Shown here in pieces: positions 1 to 23,387 of a stretch of DNA of 64,000 nucleotides. Made by a program: the position numbers and the translations under genes. The notes below the pieces were generated by a model. It saw only the letters and a list, made by a program, of their open reading frames with translations. It ran no database searches and was not told the origin of the DNA. Source of the stretch: Chytridium lagenaria. Lineage: Eukaryota > Chytridiomycota > Chytridiomycetes > Chytridiales > Chytridiaceae. Position 1 is the stretch's first letter. Each line of letters opens with the position of its first letter. Where the stretch lies: NCBI GenBank assembly GCA_025449115.1, contig JAHLKC010000042.1, positions 124,001 through 188,000 on the forward strand, read 5' to 3'.

Positions 1-829
1 CTCCTTCAGGAATGTTGGACGTGCACACCCAATCCATTTCAGTAAAGCTCCTCGAACAAACATGACCCTCTTCATTAATTATGTAGACTCTGTTGCTGAT
101 CGCAAGATCGACAACCTTATGGGTACCATCCACCAGATATTGGGTTTGGGCATAGATAAAGCGGAAGAGGTCGCCACCTTTTGATGTCAACCAGAGTTCG
201 CTTGTCGAACCAGAAAGCTTGCGTATAGAGAGAGTTCCGGCAGGAAAAGTGTCTCCAGAGGTGTTGTTGTCAACGGGGAAATTGTGCATAATTAAATTCC
301 CGTTCGAGCCGACATAGGCAAATCTGGAACCGAAAATTGCTGTGCTGTTGCCTGCATATAATTTTTAATATAAGCAAAGCAAGTGAAAAAGTGTAAAAGC
401 ATTAGAGCAATGCGCCAAAAAAATAAATAAAAGATAAATCAAAAAGTAGAAAAGGATCACTAGGAATGAATAGAAGGCGAAATATCCAAGAAAAACAATA
501 CAAAACAACAAACAAGCAAAGGAGACAAAATAACTCACCTGTGCCTGGAATTTGAATCCACTCTCTCTCGTTAGGCTCCAATCTCATCAATCGCCCGTCT
601 GAATCCGATGCAAAAGTTCTTTCCTGGTACACTGTCCAAGAAGTAAAAGTAGTGTTGGTGTGAAAGGAGTATCTTGAGCCATAACCCCTCCTGGCTCATT
701 CATCAACACTGCAGTAGCCAAGAGCAGACCAACAATGGAGCGAAAGACATTTCGACGACTCCATGACGATGACAATGATGATGTTGATGATGAAGATATC
801 GACAATGATGATCCCTGTCCAGCAGGCAT
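1..829 (-). CDS. Receptor-like membrane protein A, 5' part (3' end outside window)
   Basis: Start chosen at 829: the first ~50 residues hold a Ser-rich stretch and a hydrophobic signal segment (VFRSIVGLLLATAVL) ending near VMAQ. Exon 1 runs to 539 and ends with EWIQIPGTG. A GTGAGT donor opens the intron, and exon 2 starts at 351 in phase 1. Exon 2 reads as propeller-like strands (GSRFAYVGSNGNLI, STSELWLTSKGGDLFRF, VCSRSF, DWVCTS) and leaves the window at base 1. These strands and the intron position match genes B (2014-3605) and C (5314-6954), so this is the third paralog. The frame breaks by one base between about 650 and 675, between the signal peptide and the first strand. The transmembrane helix and tail are off-window. 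Function not recognised; secreted or membrane-anchored by inference. Confidence 0.7.
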
Positions 830-2013
830 ACTTTTAACTCTATAATAATCGTTGCGGGCCGGCTTTGTTGCTGTTCTTTTTGCTTCTGTTATTGACGGTT
901 CGTATGAGGTAGGGTTGCTTGTATGGAGAGTAAAGACTGGATTTGATCCTATCGTTGTCTAAATCAAAACCACTGTCTCTATTTCTTTGTAATTCTTTGA
1001 CGTAATAGATTGATGGTTCTCTAGTTCTCTTTTCTTGCCTCCTTTACTTTTTCTCTCTCACTCTCACTCTCTCACTTTCTCTTCCCACTTCCAGAATCCA
1101 GTGTTGGTTACTTGCACACTCCACTGGGTACTTGAGGTTTCTCCACTTTGCAATATTGCAAGTAAAAGTGAGCCTGGGAGGGAGCTGACTAAATGGCAGT
1201 GAACAAGAGGGAGTCGCTCTACACACTTGGCAGCAGTGACGGAATGGAATGGAATGGAATCACAGCAAGCAGCAGCGTATCGTATAGATGGAGTGGAATG
1301 GATGGGTGGATTGGATATACGTAAAAAAGTGGAATAAATGCTAATAACTCAATAATAGATATGTAAATACTTGAAATTACTAAATCTACCAGAGTATATA
1401 CCTATAAACCCAATATCCTGTTTAGGTATTTTATAAAAAGCAAAAGAAAGACAAAAAGACACCAAATAAATGTCAGATGGCAGGGCATCACACTCTTAGT
1501 ATATATAGTATATACAGTATAGTATGTGGTAGATACAGTAGATATGATATACATAGGGAGTATATACTACCATGATCCCCTTTTCACTGCTCTGTATAAC
1601 GTAGTACAATGAGATAAATCCCTTTTTAAAATTTATTTTATTTATTTACATATGTGTAACACATGTATACCAGCCTCAACAATTACATATTAATTATTAT
1701 TATTAATAATAATAAATTTGTTTCATATGTGCAGATTGTTGTTGTTGATGTATTTGTTTGTTCCAAAAAGAAGACGAACTCGAAGAAATATGTGTCAAAA
1801 GATATTCTACACCCACATCAACCATCAAAGAAAAAGAAAGAATGAAAACATCTACATACATCATATAAAATAATGATATTCAATATTTTTTTAATTTTAA
1901 AAAATAGAGTTGACATTTGTAAGAAAACCGAGAAAAAAACATAAACAAAAACTTTGAGCTAATAATAAACCATCTTTGTTCTTTCTTTTCATTCTTTTGT
2001 TTTTTTGGTGTTT
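830..2013. other. Intergenic, AT-rich, low complexity
   Basis: Lies between the starts of gene A and the end of gene B. It contains a GGAAT repeat near 1240-1262, a TATA/GTATA-rich stretch near 1497-1570, and ATT/AAT runs near 1625-1710. The 1.2 kb upstream of 829 should hold the promoter of gene A. No convincing coding sequence seen. Confidence 0.6.
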
Positions 2014-3605
2014 TTACATCTTTCTTTTCTCACTCCACTCCATCACCTCTTTCCCTCCCATCTTTTCTTTCAACGTGCGTTCCCTATACACAGGGGGCGC
2101 CTCCTCCTCAAAGTCCACCGCCTGCGTCGAAACACTCCCAGTCCGTGGTGGCACCACCACCGCATTCTCCATCCTCGACACGGTAGGATTGGAAAACAAC
2201 AATCCAGTCTGCGCGTCATCAAACTGCGACGATTTCGTCTTGACGCTGTCACTCAACGCCTGCATTGATTTCAAGTGGCTGTTGCTGCTGCTGCTGCTGC
2301 TTCCGTGTAATCCTGTCAGTGAAGGGGTGATCATGTTGGAGGAGGAGGCAACCGCGACAGGGGGAGGTGTGTAAGGTGAAGACGATGATGAGGATGATGG
2401 GGGGTAATAAGTGTCGTTGCTCATATGATTGGGGGGTTGGTAGAAATGGGTCTTGGCGTCAGAGGGAAGAGTGTCACGACGATGACGTCTCATCAAAAGA
2501 ACGAGAGCCACAGCACCAGCGATAAGAGCGCATACTCCAACTGTACTTCCAACAATGATTCCAACAGGCATCGACTGTGATGATGAACTTGCGGCTGCCG
2601 TCGTGGAATTCGAAGGTCCCGCTATCGACGCAACGTTTGGATTCACACCTGAAGAAGGAGACGGAGAAGGAGGAGGAGGAGGACTAAAGCACGACACGTT
2701 ACGATCACAAAACGTCTCATCCACACTTCCATCATTGTTCAACACCAACGGCAGGTTACTGTCATTCGGCACATTCAACCATTTAGCATCGCTCGTGAAC
2801 CCCGTGTAAAAAAAGGTTGAATCCTCCGTCAATGGTAACTGTGAAGCCCACAATCTCCCAATCGTATCCATCCCATACACAATCTCATCACTCGCCGCAA
2901 CATACCGAAACGTCACCCCCTTGGGATTCTCCCCACACACCCAATCCCTCGTCTCAAAACTTCTTGAACAAATCTGTCGAGACGCCTGGGTGACCACAAA
3001 CACCCTCTCCCTGACCGCCACATCCACAATAGAGAACGTCGTGTCCGTCCCAAACCCACGTGGTCGACGTAACCAGTTATGAAGAACGTTGGTGAAACTC
3101 ATCAACCAGATCTCGCCTGTGGATGAACCAGAGTGCTTTGTAAAAACGCCTGTTGGACCGCCGAATTGGTTTGCCCAGATGGCTCCAGTGTCGAGACGGG
3201 TTGGAGGGATGCTGTTGATGACGTAAAGGGATCCTTCGGCGCCAATGCCTGCGAGACCTGAACCCACAACAACCACACCGACCGCTTATATACATAAGAT
3301 ATAAACAATAAAAAAAAAAGGCAAACCAAAAATGGTGAGCATATCTCTTTATCACATTTCAAGTTGAAATGGTTGTTGTAATATGAAATGAATGATTCGC
3401 ACTCACATATCCCCGCAATCCGCGTCCACGATGTAGAGTTGGGCCTTCGCATCCACACCAGCGGATCCTTGTTCCCATCTGCAATGTAAGCGTACCCCTC
3501 AAACGTAGTGTAAGTTCTATAAGGTGATGTAGGGACCCCCTGAGAAGCGACCCCATGCAGCATCACCATCACCATCAGCATCACCATCAATGACAGTGGC
3601 ATCAT
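2014..3605 (-). CDS. Receptor-like membrane protein B (propeller ectodomain, one TM, PPVY tail)
   Basis: Two exons, 3605-3407 and 3284-2014, joined by a phase-1 intron (donor GTGAGT), give an intact 489-residue protein. Residues ~1-25 are a Met-rich hydrophobic signal peptide. The ectodomain has about six strand-turn units with Trp and Gly-x-Leu/Ile-Trp patterns (WMRRPNSTSWTRI, GAEGSLYVI, GEIWLMSF, ICSRSF, DTIGRLWAS), suggesting a tectonin-like or other beta-propeller. A Cys-containing segment is followed by a Pro/Ser stalk. One transmembrane helix (VGIIVGSTVGVCALIAGAVA) lies near residue 300, then RRHRRD as stop-transfer. The ~160-residue tail is Ser-rich and ends with APPVYRE, a PPxY motif of the kind bound by WW domains of Rsp5/Nedd4 ligases. 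This is the only one of the three paralogs free of frame breaks. Ligand unknown. Role as a surface receptor or wall sensor is inference. Confidence 0.85.
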
Positions 3606-3639
3606 GACGGGCAAGATGAGGAGTTGTTTATCTTTTTGT

Positions 3640-3735
3640 AGTAGTAGCAGTAGTAGTAGTGGTGGTAGTGGTGGTAGTGGTGGTAGTGGTGGTAGTAGTA
3701 GTGGTAGGTGATGGTAGGTGATGGTAATGATGGTA
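3640..3735. repeat. GTA/GTG trinucleotide microsatellite
   Basis: Interrupted GTA/GTGGTA repeat immediately upstream of the start of gene B (3605). If transcribed it would lie in its 5' leader. Confidence 0.85.
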
Positions 3736-4242
3736 GGTGATGGTAGCAGTAGTGTATTGCAGCAAACTTGTGGTGTGCACAGTAAATAATAATAAATATT
3801 TATTATATAAAGAGTCATGGAAAGATTTCTTTGGACTACCTTTCTCAAGGGGTGTGTAACAATTGTGTTTTGACGTGGTTTCCAATTAATTGTTATATAC
3901 TATTAAAGTTTATTTTTCAAAATTCATGTTTCATTTGATCGTTTTATAATTGAATATTTAAATAATAATATAGAATACCAACGGGCACACCTCCTCTAAT
4001 TAATCATAAGTAAATATATATTACTGCGGGTTATTATTATATATGGATAGGTCCAACAGACAACGACGACGGTTCAAGAGAAACATCAAAAGTTTAAAGT
4101 TCCATTTACAACTGCCTCACAGGGGCATCAAGAGGGAGAACATGGGTATGTATGTAATGTAATGTCATGTCATGTCATGTCATGTCACAGAGGAAGGGAG
4201 AGCGAACAAGAACAAGAGGTGAGAAGCAACACGAGAAAAGGA

Positions 4243-4323
4243 ACAGACGAAAAGAAAAAAGAGTCAACTGGATAGGTGGGTAACAGACGAAAAGAAAAAG
4301 AGTCAACCGGATAGGTGGGTAAC
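4243..4323. repeat. 40-bp tandem duplication
   Basis: Two near-identical units of about 40 bp beginning ACAGACGAAAAG and ending GATAGGTGGGTA. They differ by one A in the A run and by CTGG versus CCGG. Confidence 0.85.
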
Positions 4324-4487
4324 AAAGAAATGCAACGAGAGCAAGGTTCAACATCATCACGTATTTATTTCTTTATATTTATATTTATATATTTTATATG
4401 AATGAATGAATGAATGGGGATGGGGATGGCTGGGTACATCTGGGTAATACAAAAGCTCTGGCTTTTTCTTTTGTACAGTTAGGGTTA

Positions 4488-4592
4488 CACCATCCATCCA
4501 TCATCCATCCATCCATCCGTATTATTCCATCCATCCATCCATCCCACCCATTCATTATTCCACCCATTCATTTTATTCATCCGTCCATTCCT
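4488..4592. repeat. CATC/CATT tetranucleotide repeat
   Basis: Imperfect ATCC tetranucleotide array, interrupted by CGTATT and ACCCATTC segments. Confidence 0.8.
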
Positions 4593-5313
4593 GATGCATG
4601 CAAATCTACACAAACTTGTGTCATTGCTTCCAACTCAACAGATCTCTTAAACTCGTCTTGCTCATTCACGCTGTGCATAGTTTAGCTTCCTTCCCAGCCT
4701 TGACGAGGGGTCCACACAAGCAACTCTCTTTTCTGTAAAAACACGGCAAGGTAAACCGGAATCTTTGATGAACCATCCAACTCACAATCAAAATGAAATC
4801 TATGACAGCCAGTTCTTGGATTGTTTTTTTTTTTTTTGAAGAAACTTTGTTTGGGCTTCAACGCTGCTGTGAAGCCAAAAAGTAGGACAATGACTGTCTT
4901 TTCTGGGTTTGTCTGCATGTCAAAACAAAAGGTGTTTTCTAAAGAGAAGGGATAAAAGTGTTTTCTACGATGCATATTCTTCATAAATAAAGGTGTAAAA
5001 TATATTTTATGGCCCCAAAGCTGTTTGATATGCGCTTTGGATGACTTTGAGCCCTTTCTTTTACAGACTTTTCTGTGGCTTCTGGGTATCAGCCAAATCA
5101 CCCATTCTTATTCACCTGACAATCTTCGGGCGGCTTCCTTCCCTCCATCGTTTCAAAATCGCACAATAAAAGAGGGCATCTTCAGGGTCAACCTGGATAC
5201 ATACCGAAGACAAACACATAACGATCGCTATAACTAACTGTCTTTTTCGTCTGGCCGCCTTTTGAAAGGCTAGTCGTAGAGTCCCTCTCTCCCACATTCC
5301 GTCCTTTATACAC

Positions 5314-6954
5314 ATGCTCTTCTCCGTCGTCGTCGTCTGGCTTCTGGCCGTCATCTCCATCGTCCATGCCCAACCTGCAACTCCTTACAGGACTTACACA
5401 ACCTACCAAGGCTACGCCTACGTTTCAGATGGAAACCCAAGCGCCGGAATCTGGATGCGAAGACCCGGTGAATCCACATGGACTAGGATTCCAGGCATCT
5501 GTAAGTCGGGGTCCATTCTCTCCATTCCAACACACCATGATCAAAGTAACTCAACATCTATCCATAAGGTGAGGCCGTTGTGGTTTTCGGTAATCGAATC
5601 GCAGGAATAGGCGGTGAAGGATCACTTTACACCCTCCCTTCAGCACCCCCATCTCGTCTCGACAATGGCGGTATCTGGACAAACCAACTTAACCCCTCTG
5701 CTTTATCCAAACCCGCCGGATCACCTGACGGACGTTTATGGGTCATGAGCCGTGCCGGTACCCTCCATACCTGGACAGGAAGCGTAAGAGGATTCACCCT
5801 CGATGCCACCTTTAAAATCATCGATCTCGCCATCAGGGATCGAGTCTACGTCATCACTCAAGGAGATGGACGTGTCTGTTCAAGAAGCTTCGATACCAGG
5901 ATTGGGTTTGCGCATCCAATCCACCCAACGTTGCTTTCCGTTTAGTCGCCGCAGCGGGGGGCGTCGTGTACTGCATTGACTTCACGGGAGAATTGTATTC
6001 CACAAGGTTACCTTTAACCGAATCTTCCACCTTCTTTGCTACCGGCTTTTTCAGCAACGCCAAATGGCTCAACTCAACGTCCCCAACGATGGATCCACAC
6101 CCATCATCTTGAACGTCGATGGAAGCATCACGACGATATCTGTAATCGCGTCAACTGCGTCATGTCCACCAACCCCGCAAACCCCTCAGACCCCACAAAC
6201 CCCTCAGACCCCACAAACCCTCAGACTCCACAGACTCCAACCCATCAACAGACTCAACCTCTCCCTCATCCACAGAACCCACCTCCTCCACCGCCTCGAT
6301 GCTCGAAAACACCTCCCCAACAACACCTCCCTCACAATCAAACTCCATCTTTAATGTCGTCGTCGTCTCAAAACCCAACAACCCTCTCACCAACACCCTC
6401 ACCGGGTCCGATCCATCGGCAAATAACTTATCCCATCCACAATCCCCATCTACGTCCGCATCATCGTCCCCCCCCGTTGGCATCATTGGAGGCGTTTTAG
6501 GAGGTTGCGTCGTCATCGCAGGTGCCGCCGCTTTACACATCCTTCGACGTCGCCCCACAAAACCTCCACCCAACAACCCTCCATACAAGTTCACACCACC
6601 ATCAGATATCACTAAACTCCATATCGACTCAACTCCCTTCCCCATCGCTAAAACACCCCCACCTTCTTCCTCCCACCCCAATAACATCACAACACCCCTC
6701 AATAATATCACAACACCCCAAATCTCTCCCCAGCACAAGCTCGCAACACCCCAAATCTCCCCCCCAGCACAAGCCTATCGCAATCATCCCGTTTATCCAC
6801 CTCACTCGAAACATTCAAATGATCATAGCTTGTTCCCTGGCGCGACATCGTCAAACTCTTTAATGGCGGAAGCTCAAATGGGGGTGATGCACCGCCTCTG
6901 TATAGAGAGAATACGGGAATAAGGCCAACTTGGGAAAGTAAAGGAAAGATGTGA
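5314..6954 (+). CDS. Receptor-like membrane protein C (several frame breaks; PPLY tail)
   Basis: Exon 1 (5314-5500) encodes a clean signal peptide (MLFSVVVVWLLAVISIVHAQ) and the first propeller strand TPYRTYTTYQGYAYVSDG. A phase-1 intron at the same place as in A and B leads to exon 2 at 5569. The ectodomain follows gene B closely, then comes a stalk of DPTNPS-type repeats. The transmembrane segment is PVGIIGGVLGGCVVIAGAAA, followed by a basic RRRPTK and a tail with APPLYRENT (PPxY) before the stop at 6952. The frame breaks near 5903, near 6072 (an extra CTCAA), near 6128, near 6219 (one C fewer in a repeat unit) and near 6850. Similarity to B resumes after each break, so these are consensus errors or very recent decay. 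Read literally the gene would end at 5945. Confidence 0.7.
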
Positions 6955-7650: not shown

Positions 7651-10600
7651 TTAGACGTAGACTTTGGGGTCGCCGTTGAGTGCGATGGTGTAGCTATGAA
7701 CATAAAGTGTTAGTTTTGAGATAAATGAAGGGGAGGAGAGGAAGTGGGAACGAGACTTACAATCCGTCGGCGCCAGGGGCGATGGTGTCAGCGGGGGTGA
7801 GGACGTTACGAAGAACTACAAAAAGGAAAATAAGTTAAAACATTGTTTTCAATCAAATAACGCAAGCAAAAGAAAGGGGAGGTGGGAACCGGTAGAGACT
7901 AAACGTAGAAGGAAGGAGGTGGGAGGGACACTCACCCTTGTTATCCCCAAACGACGCCGCAACTCTCACCGTGGTGCTCACCACTTCCAGAGTTTGTCAA
8001 CGCAATCAAAAACGGCTTCCTGGCAATCACATAAGTATTGGTCGGGTTCGCCGGTCCCGCCTTGACAGCCCTAGCATTCACAAAAATCTCCCGTCCAATA
8101 TCCCTCCTCGCCTTCTGCATGACGCTCAACCACTGATAAATCCCTGCACTCGGCATAGAATTGAACCCAGAGTCCCACACGGGTCGTCGGTACTCTCCAC
8201 CATCGCTGTACGCCTGTTCCGTGCCTTGGTAAATGTTGGGGATACCGTCTGCAAAGAGAATGTAGGCGAGCGCGTTGCGGTAAAGGGACTGGTCGGGTTG
8301 GAGCTTGAGGAAACGGTCTTGGTCTTGGTTGTCGATAAAAGTTGCCGAGGACCGTCACGTCCGTGAAAGCTTCGCCGTTGTAGAAGGTTTGGTCGTCAAT
8401 GGTTTTCATGGGAGTTTTGTTGACAAAGACGTTGCGAATAATGGCCGAGTAGGTGGGGTAGCCTTGGAGGGATGCCATGACGCGTTGGTAGGCGCCAACG
8501 TAGGGGGTGCTGAATGGATAAATGGTTTTAGAAATTAGTTTACAAGATAGGAATTGAGATACTGAAAAAAAGGCGCGACCAAAGTATATAAATCCAGAGA
8601 TATTTGCTGAATAGTTAAACAGCAAAAAAGAAAGAAAACAATAGAAAACAAGAAAAAAAAACACATATACTCACAAACTCTGCGCGACCTCTCCCATACA
8701 AAACTTATTTCCAGCAGCCGCCACATAACCCGGCCAAAAGTCCATCCTCACGTGTCTAACAGCATCCAAGCGATACCCATCCGCCCAAACCCATCGACAA
8801 ACCTCATCCCCTTCAACAAATGCTCCACCGTCTCCCCATCCTCCGTGTTCAAATCCGGGTTCACCGGGTTCAATCGACAAAACTCCATGGTGCTCTGCGG
8901 CGGGTTGGCCGAGTAGTTGATATCACAGGGGGAATGGTAGTTGGAGGCCTTGTTGAGCGGCGCAGGGTACTGATTCGGCGCGTTCCCGTTCAACGGACCA
9001 ACGTGGTTGGGACCGTGTCAATCATGACAAGCATATCACGAGCGTGAGCCGCGGCAATGAGATCGCGTAAATCTTGTTTCTGCACCAAACGCGCCGTTGA
9101 TTTTCAAAAAGTCGCGAGGCCAGTAAACCGTGGTATCCTCCGGGGGTGTTGTCGATAACAGAGGAGATCCAGATGGCGTCAAAACCCATGTTTTGGATGT
9201 AGTCGAGCTTGTTGATGATGCCGCGCCATTTGCCACCGCAGTAGTTGTTGAGGATGGTGTTGAAGTCGCAGAAGGAGTTGTCTTCCGGTGGCGCGGGAGA
9301 AACGGTCGGTCATGAGCTGGTAGATGGAGCGACCTTTCCAGCCTGCGGGAACAAACTTGGGGAAGTCAACGCGGTAGTTAAAGTTGGGGCTGTATGATGT
9401 GTTGGGGAGGGGGAAATTTGCAAGTTAGCGTGATAAAATAAATCATAAGAAGAGTCATTAACAAGAAAAGGAGGAAACAGAAAGAAAAAATAATTTAGCT
9501 AAACTCACCCTCCATTGCTATCAAAAGTCACAACACCAGAAGCAGTGTACTTGAGGAAGAAACTATACCAAAAGCAAATCAGCAACTAACTTTATGACCT
9601 AAAGTCCTAAAAAATAAGGAAAATAGAAGACAATACTCACCATCATCCCTGCGCCACCATCACTGGGTCTCCCTCAAACTTCCAGTAATCATACCCAGGC
9701 ACAAGACTCTTACTATCAAACCGTCCAGTGATCGTCGTGGTGGTCGTCGAAAACAGGCCGACCTTGTTGGAGCACACAATCTCAAGGAGTGGGGTCGCGC
9801 CAGGTCGGATCCACACACCTCCAGCAAGGGTGTTGGTGGTGGGATCGTAAGCGTAGCTTTCGAGGAGGACAGCTTGGTTGCGAGGACCTTCGGGATGCGG
9901 GCGGACGGTGGACGTGAAGGTAGGTATGACAGGGGGGCAATAGTGGTGGTAGTGATGATGGCTGTGGAAGAGGTTGGGACCACTACAGTGCAGTTGTAGT
10001 GGTGGTGGTCAAGGTCGGAGGGGCGGTAATGGTGGTTGTGCTAGTGGGCACGACTACGGTGGTGGAAGTTGGCACAACAACGGTGGTTGAGGTGGGGCGT
10101 AGCTGTGGTCGTGTAGTAGTAACTGTAGTAGTAGTCGAAACAGGGAGTTCAGGAGCTCCAGAGGCAGGGGCAGTGTAAGGTCTAGTTTTGAGCCGTTTAG
10201 ATACAAACACGAAACGCGTATAGGCAAGAGATCGGTAAAGTGGATTACAAGAAAAAGAAAAAAATTGAGACCCTACCCATCATTGTACGTCCACTCCATT
10301 CACAATGTAAGAAACAGCAATCTATTTAAATGAAGAGAAAAGAAATGGTCTGTTAAAAAAACAAACATGTAAACCGAGAGACTTACCCTAGACCCAGTCA
10401 CAAATGCACCGGCGGCGGCAGCATTTACAGACCAAGCCTCATATCCATTGGTGCTTGTCGACAAGTAAGAGGCAGGAGCACTGACAGTCTGACCAGTAGT
10501 CGGGTGAGTCACGGTCAAGGTCACGACTTTCGTGAAAGCAATGTTGCGAACCTACAGAGTGAAACAGTATGAGTAAAGAAAAAGAGTGGTGAAAAGTATG

Positions 10601-11700
10601 CAAAGAAAGAAAGCATGCAACAAAGACGAAAGGATGCAACAAAGAAGAAAAGGATGTAACAAAGAAGGAAAGGAGAGGAAGGATGAAAACTTGCCCAGAT
10701 TCTGGCTGAAAGGGAAGAAGTCCCGTCAAAGGCGTAGGAGGTGAGCTTGACCGGGTCAGTGAAGGGACGGCAGGGTTCAAGGCAATCGAGACAACGGGGA
10801 CGGCAGGGACGCGGTAGTTGGTACTAGATAAATGGGATAATGTGAGTAATCAATTGATGGGGAAAAGAGTATGACAACTTACTTTGCATTGTTGTCATAG
10901 TAATTGGTGCCAGCAACCGTGTACTGAATGTAGAACTAAACAGAGAAAAAAAGGGGAAGGGCTATTAGAATAACTCTTTAAAAAAGTACAACAAATACAA
11001 TACATTTGTTCCTGGAGCGATAAACGCAGGGTGGAACCAGAAAAGGTCCAAAGCTCTTGGTTGTTTGTACCAGAGGAGGCATAGTTGGCTTGAAATAAAG
11101 TTGGTGGTGGACCATCCTGTCCCAGTGGGGTTGCTGTAGAACACGCGAAGCACCTTGTTGAAGCTCAAGTTGTTGACCTAATCAAGAGCATGGAGTGATA
11201 TGAGCAATTAGAAGTAGAATAGGGGGTTGAAACCAGATAGAGTAGTAAAAAGTGGTGTGAATAATCGATAGAAGAATGGTGAGTTAAGTTGGTATGGATA
11301 GGAAGTGGGCATAGCAGGAGGAGTAGTAGTAGCAGTGAGTATGAGTACTCATAGGAGTAGCGGTAAAAGTAGTTGTATGACTAGTCGTCAAAGTAATGGT
11401 AAAAAGTTGTATTGATAGCGCTGATATGGAAGTGGTTGGGTAGCGAGCTTGAAGTTGCTCGCCCTGCTGCGCAGAGCTCGGCAGAGCCTCGTTAATTTAA
11501 AGCTTACTCACCCAAATGGCACCGGCGAGCAATCCATTGGCATCCGTGTTAAACCTCTGCAATTGGATGTTTCCAGCGGTGGGGTTTGAGAGGGGAGAGG
11601 ACGACATTTGCAGCCAAGACAACGGTAGAGGTGGATTGAAGGATGGAGAGGAGAGCGAGAGAGAAAAGAAAAAGGAGCAGCTCCTCTTGATCCAGTTCAT
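7651..11700 (-). CDS. Secreted alpha-amylase (GH13) with three N-terminal CBM21-like modules
   Basis: Hydrolyses internal alpha-1,4 bonds of starch or glycogen outside the cell. Exon 1 (11700-11512) gives a hydrophobic signal and the start of module 1. CBM21 hallmarks are [12 protein letters not shown] and YYDNNA for module 1, [12 protein letters not shown] and SYIVNG for module 2, and GGVWIRPGA and FFLKYTASG for module 3. A Thr/Pro/Val-rich linker (TSTTVVVP repeats, ~9985-10130) separates modules 2 and 3. The GH13 barrel covers ~9350-7950: FDAIWISSV, region I (IDTV..NHVG), region [13 protein letters not shown] with the nucleophile Asp, region III GEVAQS, region [12 protein letters not shown], then [12 protein letters not shown]. 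Region IV has Gln where the family has His. The last small exons encode [10 protein letters not shown] and the end DPKVYV. At least eight introns. Frame breaks occur in the signal peptide, both outer CBMs, regions I-II and before region IV (TTTT run at ~8338). Confidence 0.88.
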
Positions 11701-12590
11701 GGACTGGATTGAGGTCGATGAGGAGAGCATTCTTGATGATGGTGCTCCCTTTCCTGCTCTTCTGTAGGATGTGTGTAGGAGAGGTGAGGTGAGGTGGCCT
11801 TTTAGAACAAAGAGAATACGTGGGAATGAGGTACTTTTTTCAGGATATGAAGGTCTGGGATATGATGAGGGAATGATAGGTAGGAATGGGAAGAGGATAT
11901 TATGAGGGAAGACCACACGAGGTATTTATTTAATAAATATATTTATATAATAAGAATGAATTGAATTAAAAAAGAATAAAAGAATAATAAGAAAGAAAGA
12001 AAGCAAAACAATTAAAAGTCGATCAAAGTACATATGTATAGTCTACATATGAATGATAATGATGATGATGAATATGATGATGAGGGGAAGGTTTAGCCCC
12101 CGTTAGTCAAGCAGAATAAATATTATTATATTGATTATTACACTCTAGTCATGCGACCAGATGTAAATACCTCATATTAATATTTATATTCAGTAATGCG
12201 GCAGTGACCACGACCATCACAAAAAATAACAACTGCGCTTCACAATCACATATATAAATATTAATAAACTGTCAGACATTTTCCATAATTGTCTTTCATC
12301 ATCCATTACATAACAAGGCTTGCCTTTGTTGTTGTATAATTATATATGTGTAACATTACTAGACGGGCTTCTTTGTACTACGCTCAGCCAAGTCACGCGA
12401 GTTTTAGTTTATTAGTTATTAGGTATTATTATATAGAATTGCCGAAATGCAATCATAATATATTTAATTCATAGGCCGAGAACCTGAATCAGATCTATTA
12501 CTATTATTTATTAGGAATAGAAGAAGGCAAGCCTCGGAGAATAAGATTTATTACATATAATAGTATACAGGCCAAGCAATTCAAGTCAAT
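11701..12590. other. Intergenic, AT-rich; amylase promoter region
   Basis: Upstream of the amylase start. Strongly AT-rich from 11930 onward with GAT/ATG repeats near 12050-12080. No coding sequence or structured element recognised. Confidence 0.55.
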
Positions 12591-20648: not shown

Positions 20649-23029
20649 TTATACAGAACCAAGTGCAGCAAGCTTGAGGTGGCAGTCAATAATCTAAAAC
20701 CATCAAAAAGAAGACAATTCCGTTAAATGATACTTCTCTACGTACACAAAAAAAGTAGTTGATAATGAAAACACGAAAAAAAATAGCTTACCTCTGTAGC
20801 CTGCTTCACCTCCAAATGAAGCCTAACCTGCTCCAACCAATCCTTTGCAATCTTCTTCGGCCACCCCTTTAACTGATTCAACTCCCTCCCCCCACTCTCC
20901 ACATCCCCCTTCTCCAAATAATACTCCGTCCTCGCCAACACACTCTCAACATCATCCCCAGGAACAAGCCCTTGTTTCCTCAACACAAACGGCGACAACA
21001 CACTCGACACAGAATAACTAATCGGTCCCCCAAACTCAGGCATCAACTGAACCTGTCGAATCGTCGACGAAATCACCTTGAACCCTTCCGCCAATTCCCC
21101 AAACGTCGCCACCCCTTGTTCCGAAATACTCTCCGACAAGGAATTAACAACCTCCTCCACAAAAACATCCCCTTCCCCACCGTCTTCAAAATCTCCACCT
21201 CCCTAAACAGCGGCGCCCTATGCGCTCCCTCCAACCTCGCATTCAACAACGCAAGCGCACTCTGCATCTTCAACACCCTCCTCGACTCCCCAACCTCATC
21301 CCCAGCTCCAATCGCCACATTCTGCAAATACTTCAACTGTGCCGCAACATGATCCAACCGCGCCAACCGTCCATCCCGTTCATTATCAATAGCACTCCTG
21401 ATCTGTGCCTCCCAATCTCGTTCAAGAGACGCCACAACCTCCTCAATCTCATTCTTCTTCACCTGCTCAAACTCATTCGCCATCCGGGATAACACCGACG
21501 CGAATTCATCGGAAAGCGCTTCCTGGAGGTTGCTGTATTCCTTGTCAAAGGCGTCGCGTAATTCTTTTTCTTTCGTCGCCAAGTCTTGAAGGAAAACAAG
21601 GGAGGAATCTTGGAGATCTGTTGTGAGTTTCTCCACCTCGCTTTGAAGCTTCGCCAACTCTTCCACGGTTTTCTCACCAACCACCGACGCGGCTTTTTCG
21701 AAAAGGTTCACGAGTGACGAGAAAACATAGGTCGGTTCAATCGCTTCCGTATTTAAGGAAGCGATAGCGGATTGAACCTCCTTCTTCAAAATGGCGTCAG
21801 GGATGTTTTCTGATATGGCCGTGAGAGCTTCAACAACTTTTTCGACGTCACTAGGTTTCACCATCTCCACGGGGGCGGGGCGGGAACTGGGGGAACGGCA
21901 GGCTTGGTTTCGGGGGTTACTTTCTTTTTCTCTTCAGGCTGCTTGGCGGGTGCTGCGGGAACTGCGGGGGTTGCGGGAGCTGCGGGAACCTTGACAGCCT
22001 TTTTAACGGGCTCCGGCGCTTTTACGGGGACGACGGGCGGTGCAACTTCCTTCACGGGTTCATCGATCACCTATGACACAATTCAATACATTATTTTCAA
22101 AAAAAACAAAAAGTACACCAAGTATAAAAACTGTGGTATAATTGAAAGAACGCGAATGGCTACGTAAAGAAAAAAACCCTTCCTCCCCACCCACACACAG
22201 AAGAAGAAAAATGAAATGAGGATTCAATCATTACCATTGCAATTTCCAATGGTGCTGGGGGAGATGAGGCCACTATTTCGGGTGCAGGTTTCTCTTCAAC
22301 GACAACAACAGGAGGAGGCGCCTTCTTCTCAGCAACAGCCTTGGGTACCTTCTTCTCAACGACAGCAGGAGGCGGAGGTAAGGTAGAAGCAGGCTGAGGA
22401 GGAGGAGGCGGCGGCGGGCTTGACTTTGCCGAAGCCGGCGTCTCCCCCAAAATCGACGTCTTAACCCACTCCACTGTCTCAAACACCTTTGTCGAAGTCG
22501 TATGAACCGTATCCGAAACTTGCTTATAAGTGTTTTTCGCCGTCTCAGCCGCCCCTTCAACCTGACTCTTGGTCTTGGAATACACATCCTCAACTTGACT
22601 CTTTGTCTGCGTGTAAAGATCCAACGCCTTCTCCGTCCCCGTCTTCACCCCTTCCTGCGCTTCAGCCGTCAACGTCTGGATCTTGGTCACCCCCTTCTCA
22701 ATCCCCGTCTTTGCATCCGTCACCGCCGCCTCCGCCGTCTCCTTCACCTCCAACGCCTTCTTCTTCACATCCTCCAACGATGTTTCGTTCCATCGTTTCT
22801 CAAGCTCGCTGATTTGATCAAGAGCAGGTTGACCACCAGGGACATTGTCTAGCCAGAACTTTTTCAATTTGTCATCCTTGTTGGCGACGATGCCGACGGT
22901 GATGTAGGCGGCACTTGTGGCGAGAAGAGTTGCGGGGATGAGGAGACGGAGGGAGGAGGATTTGGGTTTGGATGCGGGTGGAGACGTCGCGAAGGATCGA
23001 CGAAGGCTTCGAACCCTCAGCATGGACAT
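20649..23029 (-). CDS. MIC60: MICOS complex subunit Mic60 (mitofilin)
   Basis: Core subunit that shapes crista junctions in the mitochondrial inner membrane. Start at 23029 (MSMLRVRSLRRSFATS) gives an Arg/Ser-rich matrix-targeting presequence, then one transmembrane helix (LLIPATLLATSAAYITVGIV). Next come a long helical region with KSQVEDVYSKTKSQVEGAAE repeats and Pro/Ala/Val-rich linkers. The coiled coil runs ~21850-21230, and the C-terminal mitofilin domain ends the protein (TFGELAEGFK, GDDVESVLARTEYYLEKGD, LNQLKGWPKKIAKDWLEQ). Introns lie near 22234-22075 and at 20791-20694. The last exon ends CHLKLAALGSV, as mitofilins usually do. The frame breaks near 21873 in a C-rich run and near 21165 in GGGGAAGGGG; similarity continues across both. 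Confidence 0.93.
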
Positions 23030-23387
23030 GATGGATTTTTGGGTCAAAAAAAGTGGAGAACTTTTGTGTATCGCAAAGAATTGGAGATTTCTTTTTGGTA
23101 TTTTATTTACCAAGTTGAGGTTGCTAAGTCTTTCGCGGGCGGCCCTAAGAGTCGGTGTTGAAATCAGGACAGAAAAGAATCCCTCAAAGTATAGGAAAAA
23201 TCATTGCCTTCTTCAGGTTTGATTATGCAAGGGTTTTTTTTTTCAAGCAACACACCATTCTCCACGCAAATCTCGATGAAAAGCATTCGTATTAAATATT
23301 GACTATGAAACGCGTAAAAAAATACATTTATAATTGAATGATATAACCAGTTATCGATTGATTTGAGGGGCAGTAATAAGTCGCGCG

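Follow-up and report, generated by a model that had tools for sequence, protein, structure and literature searches.

Animal receptors such as LDLR/LRP, with its YWTD domain, and Sevenless are single-pass membrane proteins with a propeller ectodomain, and the fungal wall sensors Wsc and Mid2 combine a signal peptide, a Ser/Thr-rich stalk and one transmembrane (TM) helix. To our knowledge, a defined ligand-binding domain has been described in few single-pass surface receptors of fungi, and tectonin lectins such as Laccaria tectonin 2 and fishelectin are not membrane-anchored. We also know of no propeller ectodomain in Rcr1/Rcr2 or Sna3, yeast membrane proteins bound by Rsp5; Ssh4 and Ear1 are further adaptors of this ligase. 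Rcr1 and Rcr2 span the membrane, carry PY motifs and act in the regulation of amino acid permeases, and Rcr1 binds Rsp5 via its cytoplasmic PY motifs (PMC5578492). Here we describe a gene family of the chytrid Chytridium lagenaria (Chytridiomycota, Chytridiales), found in a stretch of 64,000 nucleotides (contig JAHLKC010000042.1 of assembly GCA_025449115.1, C42:124001-188000; hereafter the window), in which a lectin-like ectodomain, a single TM helix and a cytoplasmic PPxY motif appear to be joined. This layout is a new combination of known parts and is somewhat unusual.

A five-gene family with a retained PPxY motif

The family comprises five genes with a largely shared layout, and the diverged cytoplasmic tails of four of them retain a PPxY motif. 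Three genes (A, B and C) lie in the window, A running past its edge, and two tandem paralogs (D1 and D2) lie on contig C141. No sixth gene was found when the genome (41.9-Mb assembly, 356 contigs) was searched with B, D1, A and D2 as queries together, counts from such searches being lower bounds; D1 as a query matched only D1 and D2. The ectodomains aligned with z values of 24-107 in all 10 gene pairs. The first-pass annotation of the window had proposed a clustered family of receptor-like proteins, and the shared layout and these alignments bear it out. It had missed the TM segment and PPLY motif of A and the two paralogs on C141.

Gene B is the sole intact frame of the five. Its spliced model of 489 amino acids is identical to the NCBI protein BC829DRAFT_443342 of C. 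lagenaria, which confirms the splice. Its signal peptide is followed by a 250-amino-acid ectodomain and a Ser/Pro stalk; then come a single TM helix and a PPVY motif 23 residues before the end. The features of genes A, B and C are as follows (window coordinates, except where C42 is given).

3407..3605, minus strand: gene B exon 1, encoding the signal peptide (about residues 1-21, judged by eye) and what is presumed to be the first propeller unit; the spliced model is identical to the NCBI protein
3285..3406, minus strand: gene B phase-1 intron (GTGAGT...AAG); its splicing reproduces the NCBI protein exactly
2014..3284, minus strand: gene B exon 2, remaining ectodomain, stalk, TM helix, tail and stop
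2668..3282, minus strand: portion of the gene B ectodomain within exon 2, residues 68-272, modelled alone
2491..2562, minus strand: gene B TM helix, about residues 308-331, from the model helix (308-337) and hydropathy
2081..2103, minus strand: gene B C-terminal EAPPVYR(E) motif, from the DNA pattern and tail analysis
1..829, minus strand: gene A N-terminal part, start at 829, phase-1 intron at about 352-538; continues past the window edge to about C42:122723
C42:122790-122812: gene A EAPPLYRE, then 22 more residues to the end
5314..6954 (end approximate), plus strand: gene C, exon 1 at 5314-5500, phase-1 intron at about 5501-5568, then pieces in shifting frames to the stop
6476..6544, plus strand: gene C TM segment, by hydropathy
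6886..6908, plus strand: gene C C-terminal DAPPLYRE, then 14 more residues to the end

Past the window edge, gene A goes on to encode a Thr/Pro stalk, as well as a TM segment and a tail with PPLY. The signal peptides of B, C and A were judged by eye, with no signal-peptide program, and that of A requires a longer N-terminus. A phase-1 intron occupies one common alignment position in A, B, C and D2 (splice sites by eye). The best Kyte-Doolittle 19-mer scored 2.07-3.06 in all five genes, the whole protein being scored for B and only a short segment in each of the others, and a basic stop-transfer was seen by eye in A, B, C and D2. These results agree with the earlier claims that A, B and C share a signal peptide and a phase-1 intron at the same codon, and that B and C share a stalk, one TM helix, a basic stop-transfer and PPVY or PPLY near the end, the TM helix being located by hydropathy and the motif standing with 23 (B) and 16 (C) residues after its Tyr. 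D1 (BC829DRAFT_406071, 264 amino acids) stops at its TM segment, and a cytoplasmic tail was looked for there and not found.

A cytoplasmic PPxY motif lies behind one TM helix in four of the five genes (A, B, C and D2), in an intact frame only in B. The tails extend for 103-278 residues after the TM segment and each of the four contains the motif once, with 24 (A), 23 (B), 16 (C) and 17 (D2) residues after the Tyr. Shuffling, which accounts for composition only, placed a PPxY 15-30 residues from the end with a chance of 0.027 (A), 0.004 (B), 0.019 (C) and 0.018 (D2); the joint chance for all four tails, 4e-8, is a product that assumes independent tails, which paralogs are not. A better argument for retention of the motif is that the ectodomains align strongly while the tails upstream of PPxY diverge to the level of shuffled sequences (five of six pairs; the exception was C-D2, p 0.008). 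The tail alignments thus support PPxY as the only clearly retained tail element, as the first-pass annotation had suggested when it noted strongly diverging tails with PPxY kept. Further, the DNA pattern [DE]APP[FLIMV]Y[RS][DE] had three matches in the genome, exactly those of A, B and C, and its backwards control had none.

Two weak matches of B on contigs C17 and C10 were rejected as family members and excluded from the count: they are stalk/TM look-alikes that lack the ectodomain. At C17:24412-26620 we noted an unrelated protein in which a Ser-rich stalk and a TM segment are joined to a tail that by eye looks SH3-like; it was matched through stalk/TM likeness only.

Fold of the ectodomain and comparison with tectonins

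Full-length and exon-2 structure models of B were compared with known structures using Foldseek. Most named molecules among the 50 matches listed per model were known propellers, for both models, and the best matches listed for the exon-2 model were Laccaria bicolor tectonin 2 (PDB 5fsb and 5fsc) and other tectonin-domain lectins. The models thus support, and do not prove, a resemblance of the B ectodomain to a beta-propeller, with a fungal tectonin lectin as the nearest match. Rows that did not fit or did not name a propeller were 9m58_B (titled superoxide dismutase), 9ya3_K, 7som_b and chains of large complexes. The full-length model was too poor for use alone.

Laccaria bicolor tectonin 2 and other tectonin lectins, including carp fishelectin, are similar in size (222-237 residues in the PDB rows), whereas the chytrid family adds a signal peptide, a stalk, a TM helix and a tail, and its sequence is below the Pfam Tectonin cut-off. 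LDLR/LRP YWTD and Sevenless matched B in fold only, at about 10% identity and with no sequence match. Unlike the Wsc sensors, B has no WSC domain: a Pfam scan of B at E values up to 10 matched no family, hence no WSC, PQQ, Kelch, YWTD or WD40. All propeller-type Pfam matches in the other four genes were below cut-off, with PQQ_2 in C (19.3 of 27.6 bits), DUF6923 in A (19.3 of 27) and LVIVD in D1 (10.7 of 20.2). A six-frame genome scan for Tectonin gave no match, but its control was also silent in all 14 genomes.

The proposal of about six Trp/Gly strand units did not find statistical support. In an ungapped lag test for internal repeats the best score was 8.7, compared with a null 95% point of 11.6; lags of 41, 43, 82, 87 and 125 were among the best by 20-residue window in this non-significant test. 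Further, among 15 pairs of presumed blades the highest HHalign probability was 16%.

A putative Rsp5 partner and the proposed function

An Rsp5/NEDD4 ortholog is present in the genome. The genome contained 30 WW matches at E 0.01, 24 of which were over the cut-off, and 27 HECT matches; on contig C29, three WW matches directly precede the best HECT match. When the translated frames of C29 were examined with Pfam, WW (two stretches), HECT and, farther upstream, C2 were recovered, with two intervening frames without a match. The best PDB chain for the HECT exon was yeast Rsp5 (E 1.1e-152). Rsp5 is the likeliest, not the only, WW partner for the PPxY tails. In yeast, the PPxY motif of Sna3 binds Rsp5, and this binding is required for sorting to the endosomal pathway (PMC2171029). 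The chytrid proteins resemble Sna3 and Rcr1/Rcr2 as membrane proteins with a cytoplasmic PPxY, the motif that Rsp5 binds in the yeast proteins and to which, we infer, it would dock here.

We tentatively propose, with a little less than even confidence, that the family encodes type I single-pass tectonin-like lectin receptors, with a stalk, a TM helix and a low-complexity tail in which a C-terminal PPxY is the one element clearly kept, and that these are handled by Rsp5. The propeller would bind a glycan on the surface of a host, a prey organism or a bacterium, or on the fungus's own wall, and PPxY would engage one of the WW domains of the Rsp5/NEDD4 ligase. Ubiquitylation may then follow on lysines that come after PPxY or lie at other points of the tail, and the receptor would be endocytosed with its ligand and sent to the vacuole. 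If this is true, an early-diverging, flagellated fungus would have a simple, testable receptor-uptake module. A tectonin-like domain would also be placed in Chytridiomycota, for which a 2023 survey of fucose-related genes gives only Lectin_legB, its Tectonin lectins outside Dikarya being in Glomeromycotina and Blastocladiomycota (PMC10481521). It is possible, if doubtful, that the proteins form a class of chytrid transmembrane lectin receptors whose tail is selected only for recruitment of a NEDD4-type ligase; this would be a fungal receptor system for uptake or an immune-like role that evolves through tandem duplication.

The family is so far apparently known only from C. lagenaria. With B as a query, 16 pattern matches in viral contigs and 596 in prokaryote contigs were obtained, none of which was confirmed; by description, these collections are without other chytrid genomes. 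A literature search found no report of these genes or of the layout, most subscription journals being outside its reach.

Frame breaks and alternative explanations

Several results weigh against tectonin-like receptors handled by Rsp5. The models of B are of low confidence (mean pLDDT 45.3 for full length and 52.6 for exon 2), although the Foldseek matches, in which most named molecules are propellers, support the earlier proposal of a propeller ectodomain. The Tectonin (PF19193) cut-off of 30 bits was not reached, the best score being 11.9 bits in A, with no match in B, C, D1 or D2. Three protein searches over 5.77 billion sequences, two of which scored the 7987 and 7998 candidates with most words in common and the third of which had 1196 candidates, gave only B and D1; these reach relatives that share 5-residue words, and distant ones may escape. 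PPxY conservation is accordingly seen between paralogs only, with no ortholog found in another species. The D2 motif, TMPPLYQD, falls outside the DNA pattern, sits behind a frame change and is the weakest of the four. Further, there are at least 3 frame changes in A, 4 in C, 1 in D1 and 3 in D2, and all PPxY copies but that of B lie in genes broken in the assembly (A, C and D2). A, C, D1 and D2 are thus not single open frames, which the first-pass annotation had not mentioned.

These breaks could mean that the family is decaying, with B as the sole working gene and the others as pseudogenes, which we consider unlikely. Decay is favoured by the frame changes in every gene but B, by the absence of a tail in D1 while gene B and the HECT exon of the Rsp5 ortholog are unbroken, and by the profile search, which gave only B and D1, while A, C and D2 had no counterpart among database proteins of the size range searched. 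GC content by codon position did not separate intact from broken copies. However, PPxY and then a stop follow at a similar distance behind the breaks in A, C and D2, and comparable breaks occur in other genes. The alpha-amylase gene adjoining gene C (window 7941-9309, minus strand) has a frame change inside its catalytic domain, a sign of base errors or of decay of that gene, and its two pieces in different frames match adjacent parts of the PDB amylase 6sav (219-272 and 273-389). The Rsp5 ortholog likewise shifts frame within its first WW domain, where an intron would not fit (L051:2815-2930, C29, minus strand), and RSP5 is essential in yeast (PMC2171029). Because the same type of break is found in these two genes, base errors in the assembly appear a likelier, though not a proven, cause of most frame breaks than decay.

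Alternatively, the proteins may be adaptors rather than receptors, bringing Rsp5 to membrane cargo whose outer or luminal part is bound by the propeller. A single TM helix with a cytoplasmic PPxY is consistent with this, and yeast Rcr1/Rcr2, with TM segments, PY motifs and a role in amino acid permease regulation, provide a precedent (PMC5578492). The size of the exported domain and its variation between paralogs are more in keeping with ligand binding, and adaptors seem to us improbable. Membrane-anchored lectins that fix zoospores or rhizoids to host or substrate, in which PPxY sets turnover only, would agree with the stalk and the predicted lectin-like fold, and Physarum tectonins are at the cell surface as speculated bacterial sensors (PMC2707011), but retention of the motif in the tail suggests a role beyond anchoring, and we give such adhesins a low probability.

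Two other regions of the window were noted. Upstream of the amylase gene (window 9643-11925, minus strand) there are Thr/Pro-rich stretches and short frames with an 'LxGxxW' look by eye; the short frames might be repeated carbohydrate-binding modules, and no Pfam match was obtained at E 0.01 in the three frames scanned. An open frame at window 22160-23200 (minus strand) has a Mitofilin match below threshold, at 21.9 of 27.4 bits.
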